Shown one piece after another: positions 211 to 31,059 of a stretch of 46,903 bases of DNA; positions within the stretch are counted from its first letter, which is position 1; every line of letters starts with the position of its first letter. The notes below the pieces were generated by a model. That model saw only the letters and a list, made by a program, of their open reading frames with translations. It was not told where the DNA came from and did no database searches. Made by a program: the position numbers and the translations under genes. This stretch comes from Acidobacteriota bacterium (GTDB taxonomy: Bacteria; Acidobacteriota; UBA6911; RPQK01; JADFOI01): contig JADFOI010000010.1 in the NCBI GenBank assembly GCA_022562935.1, positions 1 through 46,903 on the forward strand, in the 5' to 3' direction.

Positions 211-1596
211 CTAGACCATGTAACTTATGTCGGAGGCATAGGTCGGATATCCAAAGATCATCCCTTTGATGTCTTTGGACTGCAGACCTCCGGCCATGGC
301 CATCGTCAATAGATTGATGAGCTCCTCTGCGTTGGGACCCAGTATATGGGCTCCCAGGATCCGTCCGTTTCCTTCCTCAACCAGCACCTTATAGGCAGAG
401 TATTCCTCACCGATCCGGGCCGAGGAGTACCATGAGCCAGTCCTTTCAAAGTGGGTCTCAAAATTCAGTCCCTGCTCCTGGGCCTCCGATTCCTGAAGGC
501 CTACAGAGGCCAGGGGAGGAACGGTGAAGACCAGGCTGGGAATGGGGGGATAGGACGCCTGACGTTGGTTGCCGTTGAGTAGATTAGCCGCCACGATGCC
601 CCCCTCGTGGCCGCCCACCGGAGTCAGCGGCGGACCATCGGTTGCGGCACAATCTCCCGCCGAATATACGGCAGGGTTTGAAACGCTCTGCAAGAATTCG
701 TTCACTTTCACGCCTCGCTTGTCGTGCTCAATGCCGGCCTCTGTCAGGCCGAGATCATCGATGTCTGGAACTCGGCCGGCGCCATGCACCACCAGGTCAG
801 CCTCGAAGGACCGGTTGCCATCCGAGGTGGAGGTCTGGACGGTGAGTCGTTTTCCGGACCTCTCAACCTCACAAACTTTGGCTTCAAGTTGTACATCGAC
901 GCCGAGTTTGCGCGTCCTCTCAACCAACATGCCGACTAAGTCGGGGTCAAAGCCCTTTAGCGGTTGCGCACCACGGTGAAGCAAGGTGACTTGTGCTCCG
1001 GCCCGCGCGGAGATGTGAGCGAACTCAAAAGAAATGTAACCCCCTCCTACGAATACGATCCTGGAAGGCAGCTTTTCGAGTTCAAGAAATTCGGTGCTGG
1101 TGATGACGTGCTCCTGACCCGGGATCTTGAGCTCTGCGGGTTTCGCTCCTGTAGCAATGTGGACATACTTGCTCTCCAGGATGTCGCTGCCTACTTGAAT
1201 CGCTGTTGGACCTGTGAAGCGAGCCTGGCCGTGGAACATCTCGATGCCGGCCTGGGCAAACCATTTCTCATTACTTTTGGGAACGGGATCGGTAAAGGTG
1301 CGCTTGAAGCGCATCAGTTCTGGCCAATTGATCTTGATTCGGCCGGTCTGGATGCCCTTGCCCTGCAAACGGTTCACCCAATCCAGCGCCTCCGTGGCAC
1401 CGACAAGCACTTTCTTGGGGTCACATCCGCGCAGCGCACAGGTTCCGCCATAGGGGCGAGAGTCGATGATGGCTAGGCTCCAGCCTGAATCTCGGCAGCG
1501 GCTGGCTACCCCAGCCGCTGCCGATCCCGTACCGATCACGGTGAGATCAAAACTCTTTGGCATGAGGGTTTCCTCGGTTGTGTGAGTTTGAATCAA
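211..1596 (-). CDS. merA: Mercuric reductase-like FAD/NAD(P) pyridine nucleotide-disulfide oxidoreductase
   Basis: GTGSAAAGVA FAD motif, redox-active GGTCALRGCDPKK, NAD motif VGGGYISFEFA; in mer-type operon. No N-terminal HMA domain or C-terminal CC pair seen, so the substrate is inferred from context. Confidence 0.75.
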   Translation of the reverse strand: MIQTHTTEETLMPKSFDLTVIGTGSAAAGVASRCRDSGWSLAIIDSRPYGGTCALRGCDPKKVLVGATEALDWVNRLQGKGIQTGRIKINWPELMRFKRTFTDPVPKSNEKWFAQAGIEMFHGQARFTGPTAIQVGSDILESKYVHIATGAKPAELKIPGQEHVITSTEFLELEKLPSRIVFVGGGYISFEFAHISARAGAQVTLLHRGAQPLKGFDPDLVGMLVERTRKLGVDVQLEAKVCEVERSGKRLTVQTSTSDGNRSFEADLVVHGAGRVPDIDDLGLTEAGIEHDKRGVKVNEFLQSVSNPAVYSAGDCAATDGPPLTPVGGHEGGIVAANLLNGNQRQASYPPIPSLVFTVPPLASVGLQESEAQEQGLNFETHFERTGSWYSSARIGEEYSAYKVLVEEGNGRILGAHILGPNAEELINLLTMAMAGGLQSKDIKGMIFGYPTYASDISYMV

Positions 1597-1937
1597 ACCT
1601 GTCTTGCGGGTTTAACAGCAACTGTATTCCAGATTGTTGCAACTAAAAGCAGTGCAAGCAGGAAAGAGGAGAAGTAAGCACTTACAAAAAAAGAGGGAAT
1701 CAATAATACCGCTGAGAAAATACCGAGAAAAAAGGGTAGCTGTAGTCCATGCCGCTTCCACCCTGTATGCAGGCCCCAAAGCGTGATCAGCAAGAAAATA
1801 AGGACCAGGGGTAGGAGTATAAGATCGTTGATGATAAAGCTCAGGCCTATGGCGGTCAGTGGAGCAATAACGATGGAGACGCCAAGACAGCACAAGGAAG
1901 ACAACAGTGTTCCTAAGAAACCCAGTTTATCCCTCAT
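1593..1937 (-). CDS. Small membrane protein, MerC/MerF-like
   Basis: 114 aa, hydrophobic, N-terminal LLSSLCCLG vicinal Cys pair; overlaps flanking operon genes. Confidence 0.55.
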   Translation of the reverse strand: MRDKLGFLGTLLSSLCCLGVSIVIAPLTAIGLSFIINDLILLPLVLIFLLITLWGLHTGWKRHGLQLPFFLGIFSAVLLIPSFFVSAYFSSFLLALLLVATIWNTVAVKPARQV

Positions 1938-2407
1938 GGTTCTTGTGTTATCTGCGATTTCTCACGAGTTTCCTGAATAGCCCGTTTCACACCCCCGAGG
2001 CAGCATTTTCCTGTGGGATTTCGCACCTCGCAGGCGCAATTTCCGGCTTTAATTTCTGCGCTAATACGCTCAAAGATCGTTGTATCTCCACTTGCTTTCA
2101 ACTCGTCTTCTATGTCTTGGCGGCTGTAGAGAAAACAGTAACAGACCAGATCGTTTTGGCTTGGACTTCCCTTGAAACTGGGGATCACACGCACATCACG
2201 GGTACCCAGGAGGGTTCCGTCCTCGCCGAAGTACACGACATCGCAATCCGAATCCTCGCACAACCAGAAATATTGCCGTGGCGGGACACATCTCGCAGCT
2301 AAGGCCGCAACGGTTGACCACTCTACGGGTTTACTGCGAAAGTCGCTGACCGGACAGGATCGTGTAGCGGGTGGTCTATGCGAAGTAGAGCAGCACGATT
2401 CACTCAT
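1934..2407 (-). CDS. Cys-rich CopZ-like / (2Fe-2S)-binding protein, probable metal chaperone
   Basis: 157 aa with many Cys pairs (ESCCS, LCEDSDCDV, LVCYC, NCACEVRNPTGKCCLGGV); translationally coupled in mer-type operon. Confidence 0.6.
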   Translation of the reverse strand: MSESCCSTSHRPPATRSCPVSDFRSKPVEWSTVAALAARCVPPRQYFWLCEDSDCDVVYFGEDGTLLGTRDVRVIPSFKGSPSQNDLVCYCFLYSRQDIEDELKASGDTTIFERISAEIKAGNCACEVRNPTGKCCLGGVKRAIQETREKSQITQEP

Positions 2408-2751
2408 TGAGTTAGCCCTTCCTCACTTTGCAGTTCGGCCTTGAAGCCAACTTTATCAATCGCGGCCTTGATTTCCTCCAGACTTACTGTAGAGGGTTCA
2501 TACACTACGACGGCTTTGCCCTCTTTGTAGGAAGCCTCGACTTGGTGAATCCCGTCCAACTTTCTTACCGCTAGTTTCACGGCGGCAGCACATCCACTTC
2601 AGGTCATTCCAGTCACGTAAAATACGGCCTTTTCCTGATCCCCCACAGCCTCAAGTGTCATTTCCGAGGGTGCAGTCCACAAGTCCGAAGCGGCCCAAAT
2701 ACCCAGGGCAAGAGCGCCCAGTCCAACAGCCGTAAAAATTACTCTAAACAT
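2404..2751 (-). CDS. merP: MerP-like heavy-metal-associated protein with in-frame TGA at the first Cys of GMTCxxC; candidate selenoprotein
   Basis: ATG at 2751..2749, TGA at 2601..2599, then open to TGA at 2406..2404: MFRVIFTAVGLGALALGIWAASDLWTAPSEMTLEAVGDQEKAVFYVTGMT[U]SGCAAAVKLAVRKLDGIHQVEASYKEGKAVVVYEPSTVSLEEIKAAIDKVGFKAELQSEEGLTQ; HMA fold motif; stop overlaps next ATG. Confidence 0.75.
2566..2598 (-). promoter_or_regulatory. Candidate bacterial SECIS element downstream of merP-like UGA
   Basis: RNA after UGA: AGUGGAUGUGC-UGCCGC-CGUGAAACUA-GCGGUA; 6-bp stem including one G-U pair, 10-nt apical loop starting 18 nt after UGA with G at second loop position. Confidence 0.5.
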
Positions 2752-5406: not shown

Positions 5407-6516
5407 TTAAGGACTGCCGGCAATCTCGGATTCGGGGTAGCCGCTTACCCATTCGTACCATTCGGTGAAGTAGCCATCAGCAACGGCAAGATCGCGTTTT
5501 CCGCCTGTTTCATTCACGGCTTTGCCGAATTCATCCCAAAGACCACCTGAATCATCCCCGAGTCGGAAGGGATTATTGCCAACCTGCTGATAGGTTCTTT
5601 CTTCCTGATCTTGGTTTAAACGAAGGGCCACCACCCCAAACTCGCCAATTTTTTTGAGCAGGTAAGATTCGTCGGCGAATCGGTATCTGAACAGTTGATC
5701 TTGTTTCTCGAGAAGATCCAGGGGGAAGGCGATCGATTTGTCCCCCTTCAGGTTGGTCACACCAAAAACCAAAGCGTTGCGCGCCAAACGAAGGTCATCC
5801 ATGTTGGCGACGTCAGCGAAACCCTGGGGGATGTATTCCGCTCCGATGAGGTTGTTTTCTCCTCGCCCATGTTCCCGCTCCTTGAATTTGGTGCTGGCGA
5901 ACACGACGTCGGTTTCCGGGAAGCGCTTCACCCAGTCTCCCCAGGGTTCGATAATCAGAGGAATTCGATCCATGCGAGCCGGATGCAGCTTTCCTTCAAG
6001 GGTCCGCCCTGTAAAAGGCGACCAGACGGTTTGGGTTGGATAGTCGTAAACGGTGAATGTTCCTCGTGCGATCCCATGAATCTGAAAACTGAGTGATTTA
6101 TCCTCAAACCCATCCACTACGGGACGAAAGGATGAGGCTCCACTGCAGATCTCGCAAAAAGCGAGCATGACGGGAGCACCATCGAGGGTGTCATTGACCA
6201 CGTGGTAGGCCACCAGAATCCATAGGGGATATGCTCTTGCCTTGCCGTTAACGGCCACACCTGCAATGAGATCCCCCGGCTTCATATGAGAAGCCATCGA
6301 CACAGGCACCACTCCAGGGTTATTCAGGGGAAGGTAAATATATCTTCTTCGGCCGTCCAGGGCCAGGGAACCACCCCGTGGTGGAAATTGAACTTCCAGA
6401 CTCTCTACCGAGAGCCTAGCGTCTGCACCTGACGCCGAAAACGGCGAATAGATCCCGACCGAAACTCCCAAGGCAAAAAGCACCAACAAAACGAAAGATT
6501 TTCCGAGAAACGACAT
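5407..6516 (-). CDS. DUF3179 domain-containing exported protein
   Basis: KARAYPLWILVAYHVVNDTLDGAPVMLAFCEICSGASSFRPVVDG; N-terminal signal. Confidence 0.85.
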   Translation of the reverse strand: MSFLGKSFVLLVLFALGVSVGIYSPFSASGADARLSVESLEVQFPPRGGSLALDGRRRYIYLPLNNPGVVPVSMASHMKPGDLIAGVAVNGKARAYPLWILVAYHVVNDTLDGAPVMLAFCEICSGASSFRPVVDGFEDKSLSFQIHGIARGTFTVYDYPTQTVWSPFTGRTLEGKLHPARMDRIPLIIEPWGDWVKRFPETDVVFASTKFKEREHGRGENNLIGAEYIPQGFADVANMDDLRLARNALVFGVTNLKGDKSIAFPLDLLEKQDQLFRYRFADESYLLKKIGEFGVVALRLNQDQEERTYQQVGNNPFRLGDDSGGLWDEFGKAVNETGGKRDLAVADGYFTEWYEWVSGYPESEIAGSP

Positions 6517-8666: not shown

Positions 8667-10995
8667 ATGCCTGTTGGTTTGTTACACTTTTCAGGCGGCA
8701 TGGCGAAAGCGAACGGGAAAAATAACAACAACACCGAAGTAGCCTTCGCACGAGATCTTGGCCTGTTTGACGCAACCATGATTGGCATCGGGGCCATGAT
8801 TGGGGCCGGGATTTTTGTCCTTACTGGGATTGCGGTCGGGGTGGCGGGTCCGGCGGCACTCCTTGCCTTCATCTTAAACGGATTTGTGACCCTTCTGACG
8901 GCCTTAAGCTATGCCGAATTGGCTTCCTCTTACCCCGAATCAGGCGGAGGCTATTCTTACATCAGAAAAGCGTTCCCCGGCCCGGTGGGCTTTGTCTCCG
9001 GCTGGATGCTCTGGTTCTGCTACGTGATTGCCTGCAGTCTTTACGCCTTGGGCTTCGGGAGTTACTTCTGGGAGTTCCTCCACAGCTACTTCCCCTTTCT
9101 TTCCCAGGCGGTTTTTGGAGCCTTGGGTGATGGTATGGCTCTTATTCTGGCGACTGTTGCCGTCAGCGTGGCTGTGATCTTGATCAACATGAGGGGCACC
9201 GCTTTGACGGGGAAACTGGAAAATTTTCTCACCGTGGCCAAGATGATCATCCTGGCCATTTTCATCTTTTATGGTCTCAAACAGATCGTGGATATTCCGA
9301 CCCAGGCGGCATCAAGTTTCCGGCCCTTTCTACCCCAGGGGTTCAGTGGCGTTGTGCTGGCAATGGGACTTACCTTTATTGCCTTTGAAGGATATGACCT
9401 GATCGCTACCGTGGCTGAGGAGATCAAGGAGCCCAAGAAAACAATTCCCAGAGCCACCATGATTGCACTGTCGGTGACCGTCGTGTTCTATGTGCTCATC
9501 GTAGTGGTCTGCATTGGGGCCATCGTTCCCGAGACGGGGAGTTCCTGGGAGTTTTTGGGCAAGTATCAGGAAACCGCCATTGTGAAGGCGGCTGAGAGCT
9601 TCATGCCCTTTTTTGGTGTGCCACTAGATCATCTTCGGAGGGTTGCTCTCAACTCTCTCGGCATTGAACGCCACCATACTGGCCTCCTCCCGAGTGGCGT
9701 TTTGCATGGGCCGGGACAAGATGCTGCCCGTATCTTTTGCCTCCATTCATGAGACTCGCCGCACTCCCCACGTAGCCATAGCAGTGACCGGGGCCATCAT
9801 GTTGGTCATGGCCGTCCTCTTTCCTATCCACATCATCGGATCGGCGGCCAGCGTCATGTTTCTGCTGACCTTTGCGCTGGTGAATCTCTCTTTGATAGTA
9901 CTTCGCCGCAAGTTTCCCGAAGTCAAAGCAGGCTTTCGCGTTCCCTGGTATCCGGTGACCCCTATTGTTGCCATTGTGCTCAATGTGCTGCTGGCCCTTT
10001 ACCAGTATAATTTTAATGCCTGGTCGTGGTACATCGCCATTGCATGGCTTCTGATCGGGCTGTTTATCTATTTTATCCATTTTGAGAAGGTGGCGGCCCC
10101 GGAAATGCCTCAGGTCCTTGAAGTCGGTCAGCAAGATCGGACCGAGGAATACGACTATCGCATCCTGATACCCCTGCATAATCCCGATCACGTCATTCCC
10201 CTGATGAAACTTGCCGCCCCTGTAGCCAAAGCACATAAAGGAGAAATTATTGTTCTGGGGGTTATCGATGTACCGCAGAATCTACCCATTCACGAAGGGA
10301 TGCGCTTTGTTCATCATAAGACCCCGCTCCTGAAACAGGCCGTCCAGTATGGCAACAGCGTGCAGATACCCACGCGATCGGCTATTCGGATCGCCCACCG
10401 CGTTTACGACGGCATACTGCGCACGGCAGAAGAGGAAAAGACCTCCTTGATTCTAATGGGATGGAAAGGGTACACGACGACGAAAGATCGGATTATTGGG
10501 GAAGTGACCGACAAGGTGGTTCGCCATGCCCCCTGTGATTTGATTACCGTGAAACTGGTGGATGATTTCTCACTGGATAAGATTCTTGTTCCCACGGCCG
10601 GAGGCTTCCATGCACAACTGGCCGCCAAGCTTGTTTCCATTTATCAAGCCGAATATGGTTCGGATGTGACGAGCTGTTATGTGGTGCCCCGAGGAGCAAG
10701 CCAGGAGGAGAAGGACCGGGCTCGTGAGTGGATCGAGAAAACCATTCAAGAGACGGGGCTGGGCTCCAGCGCCAAACGAACGATCATCGAGGCCGGGAAA
10801 GTGGCATCCGGACTTGCTCGGGCGGCAGGGGAGTATGATCTCATTGTTCTGGGGGACTCCGAAGAGGGCCTCTTCTCCAATGTCATCTTTGGCGAAATCG
10901 CCGAGAAGGTGGCCCGCTATTCCCGGGCCCCGGTGATGATTGTGAAACGGTATGAGGGTAAGGTGAAGTCGATTGTGAAAAAGGTGTTGGGCTAG
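8667..10995 (+). pseudogene. APC-family amino acid permease with C-terminal universal stress protein domains, interrupted by a frameshift near 9622-9630
   Basis: ORF 8667..9752 (DATMIGIGAMIGAGIFVLTG) continues in another frame from about 9625 as IIFGGLLSTLSALNATILASSRVAFCMGRDKMLP into ORF 9643..10995, which ends in USP domains. Real gene with frameshift or sequencing error. Confidence 0.75.
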
Positions 10996-26483: not shown

Positions 26484-27521
26484 ATGAGAATTCTGAGTAT
26501 TTCCTACGCTCTCCCCAGTCGGAAAGTTTCCAATGAGAGCCTGATTGAGGAGATCATCGAGAAGAATCGAGGAAATCTCTCTCCTAAAGAACTGGACAGG
26601 GTCGAAAACCAAATGAGGAAGTTCTTCAAGATGTCGGGAACCGTGACCCGCTTCCACAGGGGGATTGGAGAACGGGCGCTGGACTTCGCGGTGAAGGCTG
26701 GAAAGGCCGCTCTCAAGAAGGCGGGAGTCAAGCCGGAGGAGGTCGATCTGCTCATCTACGCCGGAGTGGCCAGAGGATGGATGGAACCCGCCACCGCTAA
26801 CCTGTTTCAAAGTGAACTAGGACTGACATCCGCCACCTGCTTTGATGTGATGGATGCCTGCGCCAGCTGGATTCGAAGTTTGGCCATCGCCAAGAGCTTT
26901 CTGGCCCAGAAGGCCTATAAGTTGGTCATGATCTTGAACTGCGAGTTTATTTTCCGAGAATACGCGAACTTCGAATTCAAGAGCAGCGACGAAGTGGAGA
27001 ACGCTTTTTCGGCCTTTACCATCGGCGAGGCCGCAACGGCTACCCTCCTGGCCTCAAACGGCGCTGAGGACGATTCCTTCTTCTCCTTCAAGACCTGGGG
27101 AGAAAAGCACGGGTTGTGCAAGATCCCTCTCCCCAATGCGGATGACTTTTCACCTCAAAATGTCTCTGATGGCCTTAAACCCATGTCTTTTTTTACCATG
27201 CCTGGAGAATTGCTTTCTTTCACCGTCAGAAAGCTGGTGAGTCATTTCAGAGAAAGTCAGGCCATCGCCAGTAAAGTACATCAAATTGTCATTGGTCATG
27301 CCGTCAGTGTGGCCTCCACCTCCAGAGTGATTAAACTGCTGGGTCTCGATCCGAGCAGTGTTTTTGAAACCCATTCCCGATTTGGCAACACCGTAGCGGC
27401 ATCTCTTCCGCTGGCACTGGCCGTGGCCGAGGCGGAAGGCAAGCTTGTGCGAGGCATGAGGGTATTGCTGCTCATGGGAAGTGCAGGTGTGAGCACGGCT
27501 GTAGGTTCCTTTACCTATTAG
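26484..27521 (+). CDS. oleA: OleA-like thiolase-superfamily condensing enzyme
   Basis: CFDVMDACASWIRSLAIAKSFL catalytic-Cys region; VIGHAVS and FGNTVAASLPLALA; followed by oleB, oleC and oleD homologs. Confidence 0.82.
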   Translation: MRILSISYALPSRKVSNESLIEEIIEKNRGNLSPKELDRVENQMRKFFKMSGTVTRFHRGIGERALDFAVKAGKAALKKAGVKPEEVDLLIYAGVARGWMEPATANLFQSELGLTSATCFDVMDACASWIRSLAIAKSFLAQKAYKLVMILNCEFIFREYANFEFKSSDEVENAFSAFTIGEAATATLLASNGAEDDSFFSFKTWGEKHGLCKIPLPNADDFSPQNVSDGLKPMSFFTMPGELLSFTVRKLVSHFRESQAIASKVHQIVIGHAVSVASTSRVIKLLGLDPSSVFETHSRFGNTVAASLPLALAVAEAEGKLVRGMRVLLLMGSAGVSTAVGSFTY

Positions 27522-27548
27522 ATTTCTCCCACCACTCATGACTCACAG

Positions 27549-28442
27549 ATGAGCTTTTCTGTGGATCAAGTCAAGCACCTCTACGATTTTCAATCCCACT
27601 ACCTCAACCGCCGGGGGTATCAATATCATTACCTGGATGAAGGGCAGGGTGCGCCTCTGGTGATGCTTCACGGAAATCCCAGTTGGTCCTTCATGTATCG
27701 GGAGCTGGTTCGAGCTTTTCGAGATACCCACCGTACCGTGGTGCCCGATCACATGGGTTGCGGACTTTCCGACAAGCCTCCCAGTGGGGCATATCACTAT
27801 ACGCTGGAGGAGCGGGTCGCTGATCTGGAAGCACTGATGGATGAAAGGGGCATCCACTCCAACATCACCCTGATCATGCACGATTGGGGCGGTGCCATCG
27901 GAATGACCTATGCCGCCCGTCACCCCTCCAGGATTGGAAGGCTTATCGTCCTCAACACAGCGGCCTTTCTTCTGCCTCCGGGAAAGTCTCTTCATTGGTC
28001 CCTTTCCCTGTGTAGAAACTCCCGGGTGGTCCAGTTCTTCATCCTTAGATTCAACGCCTTTGCGCGAATGGCCGGGTATTGGGGTTGCCGGCAGCCGATG
28101 CCCAGAGAGATTCGCCGTGCCTATCGGGCTCCTTATGACTCCTGGCAGAACAGGATCGCCACGCTGCGCTTTGTCCAGGACATTCCCCTTACTTCTACGG
28201 ATCATTCCTATGGGCTGCTGCAGCAAACCCAGGAAAATCTCTATCGGTTCCGGCAAACACCGATGCTGATTTGCTGGGGAGAACGGGATTTCATCTTCGA
28301 CGGTGACTTTCTCAGGGAGTGGATCAGGCGTTTTCCCAAGGCCCAGGTCCATCGGTTTCCAGGGGCGGGACACTATGTTTTGGAAGAACTGCCCGCGACT
28401 ATCGTCCCGTTGATCCGCGATTTTCTGGCAACTCACTCATGA
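27549..28442 (+). CDS. oleB: OleB-like alpha/beta hydrolase (haloalkane dehalogenase superfamily; beta-lactone decarboxylase)
   Basis: LVMLHGNPSWSFMYRELVRAFRDTHRTVVPDHMGCGLSDKP; MHDWGGAIGMTYAARHP. Confidence 0.85.
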   Translation: MSFSVDQVKHLYDFQSHYLNRRGYQYHYLDEGQGAPLVMLHGNPSWSFMYRELVRAFRDTHRTVVPDHMGCGLSDKPPSGAYHYTLEERVADLEALMDERGIHSNITLIMHDWGGAIGMTYAARHPSRIGRLIVLNTAAFLLPPGKSLHWSLSLCRNSRVVQFFILRFNAFARMAGYWGCRQPMPREIRRAYRAPYDSWQNRIATLRFVQDIPLTSTDHSYGLLQQTQENLYRFRQTPMLICWGERDFIFDGDFLREWIRRFPKAQVHRFPGAGHYVLEELPATIVPLIRDFLATHS

Positions 28443-30064
28443 GCAGCCCCACCAATTTCGCCGCCCATCTTTCTATCCTGTCCATCCAGCGGCCCTCCCA
28501 GCCGGCTCTTCTCTCCCGGCACGGCGTTCTCACCTTTCGTGAACTGGAGGAAAGGAGCAACTGTTGTGCGCAAGGGCTCAAAGAGATCGGAATTCAACGG
28601 GGTACGCGCACCGTGTTGATGGTCACTCCAGGTGTCGAGTTTCTGGTTTTGAGCTTTGCCCTCATCAAAATCAATGCGGTGCTTGTTTTGGTGGATCCCG
28701 GCATGGGATGGCAGAACCTCAAGAAGAGTTTGGAACAGGCAAAGCCTGAAGCGTTTGTGGGTACCCCTTTGGCCCAGATGGCCCGCATCTTTTTTGGGTG
28801 GGGCCGAGGCAGCGTGAAGACTTTTCTTACCGTGGGGAGATTCCGACCCTGCAGCGGGTATTCCTTCACTCAGGTGATGCATTTGGGTGCTGGTGGCGGG
28901 GAATTTGCTGCTGAGCCTTCAGAAAGTGATGATCTGGCTGCCATTGTGTTTACCTCAGGCAGCACCGGCAGACCGAAAGGAGTCGTTTATACCCATGGGA
29001 TGTTCTCCTCCCAGGCGGCCCTTATGCGAGATTCCTTCCAGATCGAAGCCGGTGAGGTGGACCTGGCTACTTTTCCGCTCTTTGCCCTTTTCGATCCGGC
29101 GCTACAGATGACCACGGTGTTCCCCGAGATGGATTTTACCCGGCCAGGTCAAGTCGATCCCTTGAAGATCATTTCTCCTATCCAGGAATATAAAGTCACC
29201 CATATGTTTGGGTCCCCGGCTCTACTGGACCGAGTTTCTCGTTACGGAAAAGGTCGGGGAATCAAGCTCCCCACACTGCGGCGCGTTCTCTCGGCCGGGG
29301 CGCCGGTGCCGGCCAAGGTTCTTGAGCGCTTCGCCACTTTGCTGGATCCGGATGCGGAGATTCACACTCCCTATGGAGCTACGGAAGCGTTGCCGGTGTG
29401 CTCGATCACGAGTCGTGAGTTATCCAGCCAGGTCGACAACCGACCCGGCCGGGGGGTTTGTGTCGGGCCTCCCCTTGCGGGAATCCATTTGGCTGTCATT
29501 AGAATCGATGACGGACCCATCCCTCTCTGGTCCGAGGACCTTCGGGTGCCGGCGGGTGAAATCGGGGAACTGGTGGTGTGGGGCCCGAATGTTTCCACCG
29601 AGTATTTCGGCATACCGGAGGCCAATGACCTGGCCAAAATTCAGAGCCCCGAAGGAATTCGCCACCGGATGGGTGACCTGGGCTATAGGGACGAGGAGGG
29701 CCGAGTCTGGTTCTGTGGCCGCAAGTCCCAGCGGGTGATTACTCCACAGGGAACGCTGTTTACGGTAGCCTGTGAAGGCATTTTCAATGAGCACCCAAAG
29801 GTTTATCGAAGCGCGCTAGTGGGGGTGGGAGAGCCGCCCCAACAGAAACCCGTGCTGTGTGTGGAATTGGAAAATGATGGGAAGAAAAAAGACAAAGGAT
29901 CACCACAGCTCAGGAAGGAGATTTTGGAACTGGGGGCCCACGATGCCCAGACCAAGCAAATCCGGACACTCCTGTTTCATCCCTCCTTCCCGGTTGATGT
30001 GAGGCACAACGCCAAGATTTTTCGCGAGCAACTGGCTCGTTGGGCTAGCAAGAAGGTTTCATGA
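28439..30064 (+). CDS. oleC: OleC-like AMP-binding beta-lactone synthetase
   Basis: FTSGSTGRPKGVVYTHGMFSSQ; LFALFDPALQMTTVFPEMDFTRPG; TPYGATEALPV; ATG overlaps oleB stop. Confidence 0.87.
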   Translation: MSSPTNFAAHLSILSIQRPSQPALLSRHGVLTFRELEERSNCCAQGLKEIGIQRGTRTVLMVTPGVEFLVLSFALIKINAVLVLVDPGMGWQNLKKSLEQAKPEAFVGTPLAQMARIFFGWGRGSVKTFLTVGRFRPCSGYSFTQVMHLGAGGGEFAAEPSESDDLAAIVFTSGSTGRPKGVVYTHGMFSSQAALMRDSFQIEAGEVDLATFPLFALFDPALQMTTVFPEMDFTRPGQVDPLKIISPIQEYKVTHMFGSPALLDRVSRYGKGRGIKLPTLRRVLSAGAPVPAKVLERFATLLDPDAEIHTPYGATEALPVCSITSRELSSQVDNRPGRGVCVGPPLAGIHLAVIRIDDGPIPLWSEDLRVPAGEIGELVVWGPNVSTEYFGIPEANDLAKIQSPEGIRHRMGDLGYRDEEGRVWFCGRKSQRVITPQGTLFTVACEGIFNEHPKVYRSALVGVGEPPQQKPVLCVELENDGKKKDKGSPQLRKEILELGAHDAQTKQIRTLLFHPSFPVDVRHNAKIFREQLARWASKKVS

Positions 30065-31059
30065 AAGCACTGGTGACGGGTGGAGGTGGCTTTCTGGGGG
30101 GAGTCATCGTGCAGCAATTGCTCGAGCAGGGCTACGCAGTGCGGAGTTTCTCCCGGGGAAGCTACCCTCTGCTTGAGGCCCTGGGTGTGGAGATCTCTCG
30201 AGGAAATCTGGCTGAGGCGGAAGCCGTCCAGGAAGCCTGCCAGGATTGTCAGATTGTTTTTCATGTCGCGGCCAAAGCGGGAATCTGGGGGAATAAGGAT
30301 GCCTACTATCGGACGAACGTCACCGGTACGGATAACGTCATCTCCGCCTGCAGGGCTTTGGGGATTTCACGGTTGGTCTATACCAGTACGCCGAGTGTGG
30401 TCTTTGACGGACGGAACCTGGACGGAGTGGATGAGCGGGTACCCTATGCTTCCGACTACAAGTCGGCTTACCCGGCCACCAAGGCTACTGCCGAACGGAT
30501 GATTCTGGCTGCCAATGATGAACGGCTGGCCACCGTAGCACTGCGGCCCCATCTCATCTGGGGGCCTGGGGATACCCATCTGGTTCCCGGCATCCTGGCG
30601 CGAGGACGGGCCGGCAGGCTGCGCAGAATCGGGAAGGTCTCCAATCTGGTCGACTTTACCTATGTTGAGGATGCAGCCCAGGCCCATCTTTTAGCGGCTG
30701 CTCGCCTTTCACCCGGTTCACCGATTGCGGGAAGGGTATTTTTCATTTCACAGGATGAGCCGGTTCCTCTTTGGGACTTTGTCAATCGTATCCTGGAGGC
30801 AGCCGGCCTTCCCCCTGTGACCGGGACGGTCTCTCCCCGTTTGGCCTATGCGGTCGGCTGGCTGTGCGAGGTCCTCTATGGGAGACTGGGACTCAAGGGC
30901 GAGCCTCCCATGACACGCTTTCTGGCCGAGGAACTGGCCACCAGCCACTGGTTTGACATCAGTGCTGCCCGGCAGGAACTGAGTTACCAACCCAAGGTCA
31001 GCGTCGAAGAGGGGCTCGAACGGCTCAAAGCCTGGCTGGATGCCGAGGGTCAGTCCTAA
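30061..31059 (+). CDS. oleD: OleD-like NAD(P)-dependent reductase (3-beta-HSD/epimerase family)
   Basis: KALVTGGGGFLGGVIVQQLLEQGYAVRSFSRG; FHVAAKAGIWG; YASDYKSAYPATKATAERMIL; ATGA overlap with oleC. Confidence 0.87.
   Translation: MKALVTGGGGFLGGVIVQQLLEQGYAVRSFSRGSYPLLEALGVEISRGNLAEAEAVQEACQDCQIVFHVAAKAGIWGNKDAYYRTNVTGTDNVISACRALGISRLVYTSTPSVVFDGRNLDGVDERVPYASDYKSAYPATKATAERMILAANDERLATVALRPHLIWGPGDTHLVPGILARGRAGRLRRIGKVSNLVDFTYVEDAAQAHLLAAARLSPGSPIAGRVFFISQDEPVPLWDFVNRILEAAGLPPVTGTVSPRLAYAVGWLCEVLYGRLGLKGEPPMTRFLAEELATSHWFDISAARQELSYQPKVSVEEGLERLKAWLDAEGQS

Follow-up and report, generated by a model that had tools for sequence, protein, structure and literature searches.

A small HMA protein beside a MerT-like transporter very probably carries selenocysteine at its metal site in an Acidobacteriota bacterium

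The window, that is the whole stretch of 46,903 nucleotides that was analysed, holds near its start a metal operon of which the identified genes lie on the minus strand. In the order of reading, the first is a CsoR/RcnR-family metal-sensitive repressor (PF02583, 3228..3545), whose ligands follow the C-H-C pattern of copper CsoR. It is followed by a MerT-like membrane transporter (PF02411, 2777..3124) in which helix 1 bears a CC pair and a C-x5-C motif provides a second Cys pair. After the gene that is the subject of this study come a CopZ N-terminal type protein (CopZ-N, 1934..2407), which scores above the cut-off of NF047645 and is a predicted Zn and [2Fe-2S] metallochaperone, a MerC-like membrane protein with a CC pair (PF03203, 1593..1937), and a pyridine nucleotide-disulphide oxidoreductase (211..1563), a flavin protein that has a CALRGC redox pair and lacks the C-terminal CC of MerA. 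The latter reached 285 bits against a MerA cut-off of 454 and ends in GYPTYASDISYMV. At the end of the operon, the start of a small Cys-rich ORF on the minus strand (2-142, CHTCGCSLVRLGIS) runs off the window; it gave no family matches. Elsewhere in the window, an amino-acid permease-like gene (8667-10995) is split over two overlapping frames, where a frameshift or assembly error is likely, and OleA-, OleB-, OleC- and OleD-like genes stand in a row (26484-31059). Judged by ORF starts alone, the latter form an olefin synthesis cluster, in which ~120 bases are shared by the B and C frames; these may perhaps represent a fused gene with a frameshift.

Between merT and the CopZ-N gene, conventional calling placed no ORF of at least 80 aa in the interval 2408-2776. 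Reading the minus strand from 2751 to 2404 yields MFRVIFTAVGLGALALGIWAASDLWTAPSEMTLEAVGDQEKAVFYVTGMT-U-SGCAAAVKLAVRKLDGIHQVEASYKEGKAVVVYEPSTVSLEEIKAAIDKVGFKAELQSEEGLTQ-stop, with a TGA at 2601-2599 (codon 51) as the single internal stop. The predicted product (2404..2751, minus strand) counts 115 aa and comprises a hydrophobic N-terminus and one HMA domain (PF00403, residues 43-104, 60.9 bits, E 1.6e-16, against a Pfam gathering cut-off of 24.8). Its metal-binding loop reads GMT-U-SGC, as compared to the usual GMTCxxC: the TGA (2599..2601), read as selenocysteine (Sec), occupies the first metal-binding position, and codon 54 (TGC, 2590..2592) provides the second metal-binding Cys. The terminal TGA (2406-2404) shares the letters ATGA with the start codon of the next gene (2407-2405), and merT lies immediately upstream, the position in which a merP gene is found. 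The original prediction, which had proposed that a gap without a called ORF hides an intact MerP-like HMA gene, read through one TGA at the first metal-binding Cys and overlapping the next ATG with its stop, was thus borne out on all these points. Among proteins of solved structure the best relatives are the HMA domains of copper ATPases, and MerP (1afi, 1osd) was found as well; a search of the named genome collection found no relatives. The empty interval between merT and the CopZ-N gene implies that gene callers miss genes of this kind.

The assembly to which the window belongs (188 contigs, 3.44 Mb, 89% complete) encodes the complete Sec set, namely SelA (574 bits), SelB (362 bits), SelD (374 bits) and tRNA-Sec (71 bits), the last of which is also called by ARAGORN as tRNA-SeC with anticodon TCA. 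The selD gene has an in-frame TGA of its own, located in SCAGUASK at the site that is usually Cys or Sec. There are therefore grounds independent of the HMA gene to conclude that the organism decodes UGA as Sec, and the lack of such machinery, which had been put forward beforehand as one of the observations that would count against the prediction, does not apply. The bin contains two near-identical selB copies (G000:C19 and G000:C24; L001 and L002), the second of which is partial; perhaps two strains were merged in the assembly. The same search did not find selA in four genomes that have a TGA-containing HMA gene (G001, G023, G111 and G319), where three of the bins are 75-88% complete and that of G319 is 93% complete. 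The presence of selA as a discriminator was considered and rejected, as the gene is common in the phylum (251/396).

A direct comparison is offered by the closest relative, a member of the same family (G004, locus L062) in which the gene order CsoR - MerT - MerP is the same as in the window. MerT and CsoR are 65% and 71% identical between the two. The ortholog of the HMA gene occupies the slot directly after MerT and is a Cys form, with TGT at the codon that is TGA in the window. The alignment with Cys homologs that had been suggested earlier thus pairs the in-frame UGA with a Cys codon in a syntenic gene, and what the closest relative has in this operon slot is a Cys ortholog rather than the disrupted copy that had been named as counter-evidence. 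The identity between the two proteins is 36% before the TGA and 59% after it, and the HMA domains are 70% identical. For the part after the TGA, dN is 0.26 and dS 1.5 (dN/dS about 0.17), which is the mark of purifying selection, and this portion is therefore maintained as protein. The frame, which had been described as clean on both sides of the TGA, is indeed open, and its downstream part is conserved.

The same substitution recurs in related genes. A profile HMM was made from Cys-only HMA domains and every stop was masked as X, and the fetched loci contained 148 distinct HMA domains. In-frame stops were found 22 times, always as TGA and never as TAA or TAG; 17 of these stops fall in the column of the first ligand Cys, five in that of the second and none elsewhere. 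Some loci had been fetched for a TGA inside the match, but irrespective of its position, and this choice therefore does not account for the concentration of stops at the two Cys columns. The absence of TAA and TAG is partly affected by this manner of fetching; in the unselected match list, TGA occurs in 12 matches and TAA or TAG in none. The Sec-HMA proteins come from many lineages and occur as UxxC, UxxU and CxxU forms, with motifs that include GMTUGGC, GMTUGAC, GMTUEGC, GMTUDSC, GMTUTGC, GMTUAGC and GMDUAVC, as well as GMTUNAU, GMIUGLU, GMVUSGU, GMTUGGU and GLFCPLU. In a genome of the same genus (G001; L060 / L113) a homologous operon was found (identity to the window: oxidoreductase 92%, CopZ-N 77%, CsoR 74%, MerT 70%). 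Its Sec-HMA is not that of the window but one with two TGAs and the motif GMVUSGU; it lies between repressor and MerT, and the slot from MerT to CopZ-N is devoid of an HMA gene. More UxxU or CxxU HMA proteins, most with a signal-like N-terminus, are encoded at five other loci (L057, L106, L063, L118 and L135). Two HMA-domain trees were made, with the window protein present in the second and absent from the first. Their use as a count of Sec gains was rejected since they are too poorly resolved: the best trees have 10-12 Cys/Sec changes, of which only 1-2 are forced by supported branches.

The original prediction included a SECIS-like hairpin 12-33 nt downstream of the TGA. A candidate bSECIS hairpin is present in that place (2566..2587, minus strand), formed by a 6-bp stem, UGCCGC/GCGGUA (2587-2582 with 2571-2566), and a 10-nt loop, CGUGAAACUA, that begins with CGU 17 nt after the TGA. 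The fold check that had been recommended does find the hairpin, yet with -6.6 kcal/mol it is only as stable as its synonymous-codon shuffles (z -0.08), and a 53-nt fold starting at the TGA is no better than shuffles either (z 0.07). Moreover, the loop of 10 nt compares with 3-9 nt in the bSECIS model quoted in PMC13188914. A scan of the window with Rfam gave no matches. A stronger hairpin (CCUGGC-CGUGC-GCCAGG) occupies the same place in several other Sec-HMA genes, and at bSECIS-like positions the Sec genes form more stable hairpins than their Cys homologs do (p 5e-5 by Mann-Whitney test, a value that ignores relatedness and the slightly higher G+C of the Sec genes). As a SECIS the window hairpin is plausible, and on its own it is within chance.

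The weakness of this predicted SECIS, and the fact that the gene is known from one draft assembly of a metagenome bin, would both suit the alternative of an ordinary Cys MerP gene that was either broken by a nonsense mutation or given its TGA by an assembly error. Such an accident, however, would have had to strike one of the two ligand codons out of 115, in a genome with Sec machinery, and to leave a frame that is intact and conserved past the TGA. In addition, all 22 stops in the related HMA genes are TGA and lie at ligand Cys columns, a pattern that neither a pseudogene nor a sequencing error would yield. We consider this alternative extremely unlikely. As far as can be judged from sequence, the bacterium very probably uses Sec in place of Cys at the metal site of a small HMA protein.

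Selenoproteins of this general kind have been predicted before. The Global Ocean Sampling survey of 2008 lists 'Mercuric transport protein MerP' as a selenoprotein family with two sequences, and 'putative mercuric transport protein' as another (PMC2398784); the former is likewise a MerP-type selenoprotein, although from marine samples and in a table without the Sec motif, where the likeness is one of family name. Reviews list MerT-type selenoproteins, a P-type ATPase with UxxC and the UxxU metal-binding proteins of NF041115 (PMC9312934, PMC13188914). The suggestion in the original prediction that Sec-containing metal-transport proteins may have been reported is supported by the ocean survey and the reviews, and also by the NCBIfam entry NF045683. 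NF041115 (UxxU_metal_bind) describes small proteins of the HMA type whose CxxC metal motif contains Sec, as it does in the window protein, and is the best-scoring NCBIfam model for the latter; nevertheless, the score of 74.3 bits stays below the cut-off of 95, and the window protein is UxxC, whereas the members of NF041115 are UxxU and are named 'putative mercuric reductase' in the reviews. The HMA proteins of the three loci compared with this model (L057, L135 and L060) score below its cut-off as well. NF045683, a MerT/CopZ fusion-like heavy metal transport selenoprotein, is made of the same parts, MerT and a CopZ-like HMA domain, but in the window these are two neighbouring genes, each of which matches part of the model and remains far below its cut-off. 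Classical MerP (TIGR02052; 1afi, 1osd) has the HMA fold, the GMTCxxC loop and the hydrophobic N-terminus in common with the window protein and also adjoins merT; the window protein differs in having Sec for the first Cys and in the adjacent regulator, which is of the CsoR type and not of the MerR type. The cation-transporting P-type ATPase selenoprotein (ABB15669.1) is likewise a UxxC metal transport protein, but a large ATPase instead of a small separate HMA protein. Judged by the ocean survey and the two reviews, metal-binding selenoproteins were thus already predicted, and the window gene is a well-supported further case, of a stand-alone UxxC type. What is new here is the syntenic Cys twin, the consistent placement of the TGAs (22 of 22) and the occurrence of Sec-HMA proteins throughout the Acidobacteriota. 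The window also encodes a DUF3179 protein (5407-6516) in its Cys form, CEICSG; Sec-containing relatives of DUF3179 are listed in the same reviews (PMC9312934, PMC13188914).

With respect to the metal, MerT and MerC favour mercury and the CsoR ligands and CopZ-N favour copper, and the chance that mercury is the metal is therefore about even. A broader reading of the Sec-HMA site as a soft-metal ligand is highly probable. The window protein reaches neither the cut-off of any mercury-specific MerP model (37.3 bits against 92.55 for TIGR02052) nor that of any copper chaperone model (59 bits at best), whereas the MerTP fusion model matches it at 68 bits, that is, better than any copper chaperone model. 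Of the Sec/Cys mercury site that was originally proposed, the Sec part is supported by the machinery, the Cys ortholog and the recurrent TGAs, and mercury is plausible only, the MerP models being below cut-off. Alternatively, the protein might be a Sec copper chaperone, where the HMA protein and CopZ-N form a split CopZ under a copper-type CsoR. The C-H-C ligand pattern of the repressor, the CopZ-N protein that passes its family cut-off and the copper ATPase domains as best relatives of solved structure fit this alternative, as does a bin in which the MerA-like proteins examined do not bear the C-terminal CC. In contrast, the gene adjoins a MerT with both Cys pairs, a MerC-like protein is also present in the operon, and the MerTP fusion model outscores the best copper chaperone model. 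In this reading the MerT- and MerC-like proteins would move copper or another soft metal. We regard a copper chaperone as possible but somewhat doubtful; it differs from the best overall explanation given below as to the metal, and the confidence placed in the one overlaps with that in the other. The idea that the genome encodes a canonical MerA at another site was rejected for want of support: all 12 MerA-like matches in the 89%-complete bin remained below the cut-off, and the C-terminal CC is absent from the operon oxidoreductase and from the five best-scoring other MerA-like proteins that were examined. A more far-reaching proposal, namely that small HMA proteins in the Acidobacteriota repeatedly swapped a ligand Cys for Sec (giving UxxC, UxxU and CxxU), with selenium itself as Hg(II) ligand in a selenium-dependent capture route for soft metals that is free of classical MerA, seems unlikely as it stands.

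The Sec might also be a redox centre, in the fashion of thioredoxin-like UxxC selenoproteins, and serve for example to reduce or protect the Cys pairs of MerT. Most bacterial UxxC selenoproteins are oxidoreductases (PMC2398784) and a disulphide oxidoreductase is encoded in the operon. Nevertheless, the fold is that of HMA and not thioredoxin-like, the motif is a metal-binding loop, and UxxU and CxxU forms occur too, which renders a redox centre quite improbable. The best overall explanation, in which we have high confidence, is that of an exported or membrane-anchored, MerP/CopZ-like HMA protein with Sec at position 51 that binds a soft metal and hands it over to MerT. In this scheme codon 51, UGA, specifies Sec, and outside the cytoplasmic membrane a soft metal ion, most likely Hg(II) and next Cu(I), would be bound by the selenolate of Sec51 and the thiolate of Cys54. 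MerT would accept the ion on its Cys pairs and take it up, and once inside it may be handled by CopZ-N and the flavin disulphide oxidoreductase under control of the CsoR-type sensor. With selenium, the site would bind soft metals more strongly and faster than in the Cys form.

In nearly all selenoproteins that are understood, Sec serves redox chemistry. Sec at the exact position of a metal ligand, and a Cys twin that a relative carries in the corresponding operon slot, constitute a clean natural pair. Such a pair would allow one to test whether biology uses selenium as a metal ligand, and the Hg-Se bond gives a test with mercury its meaning.
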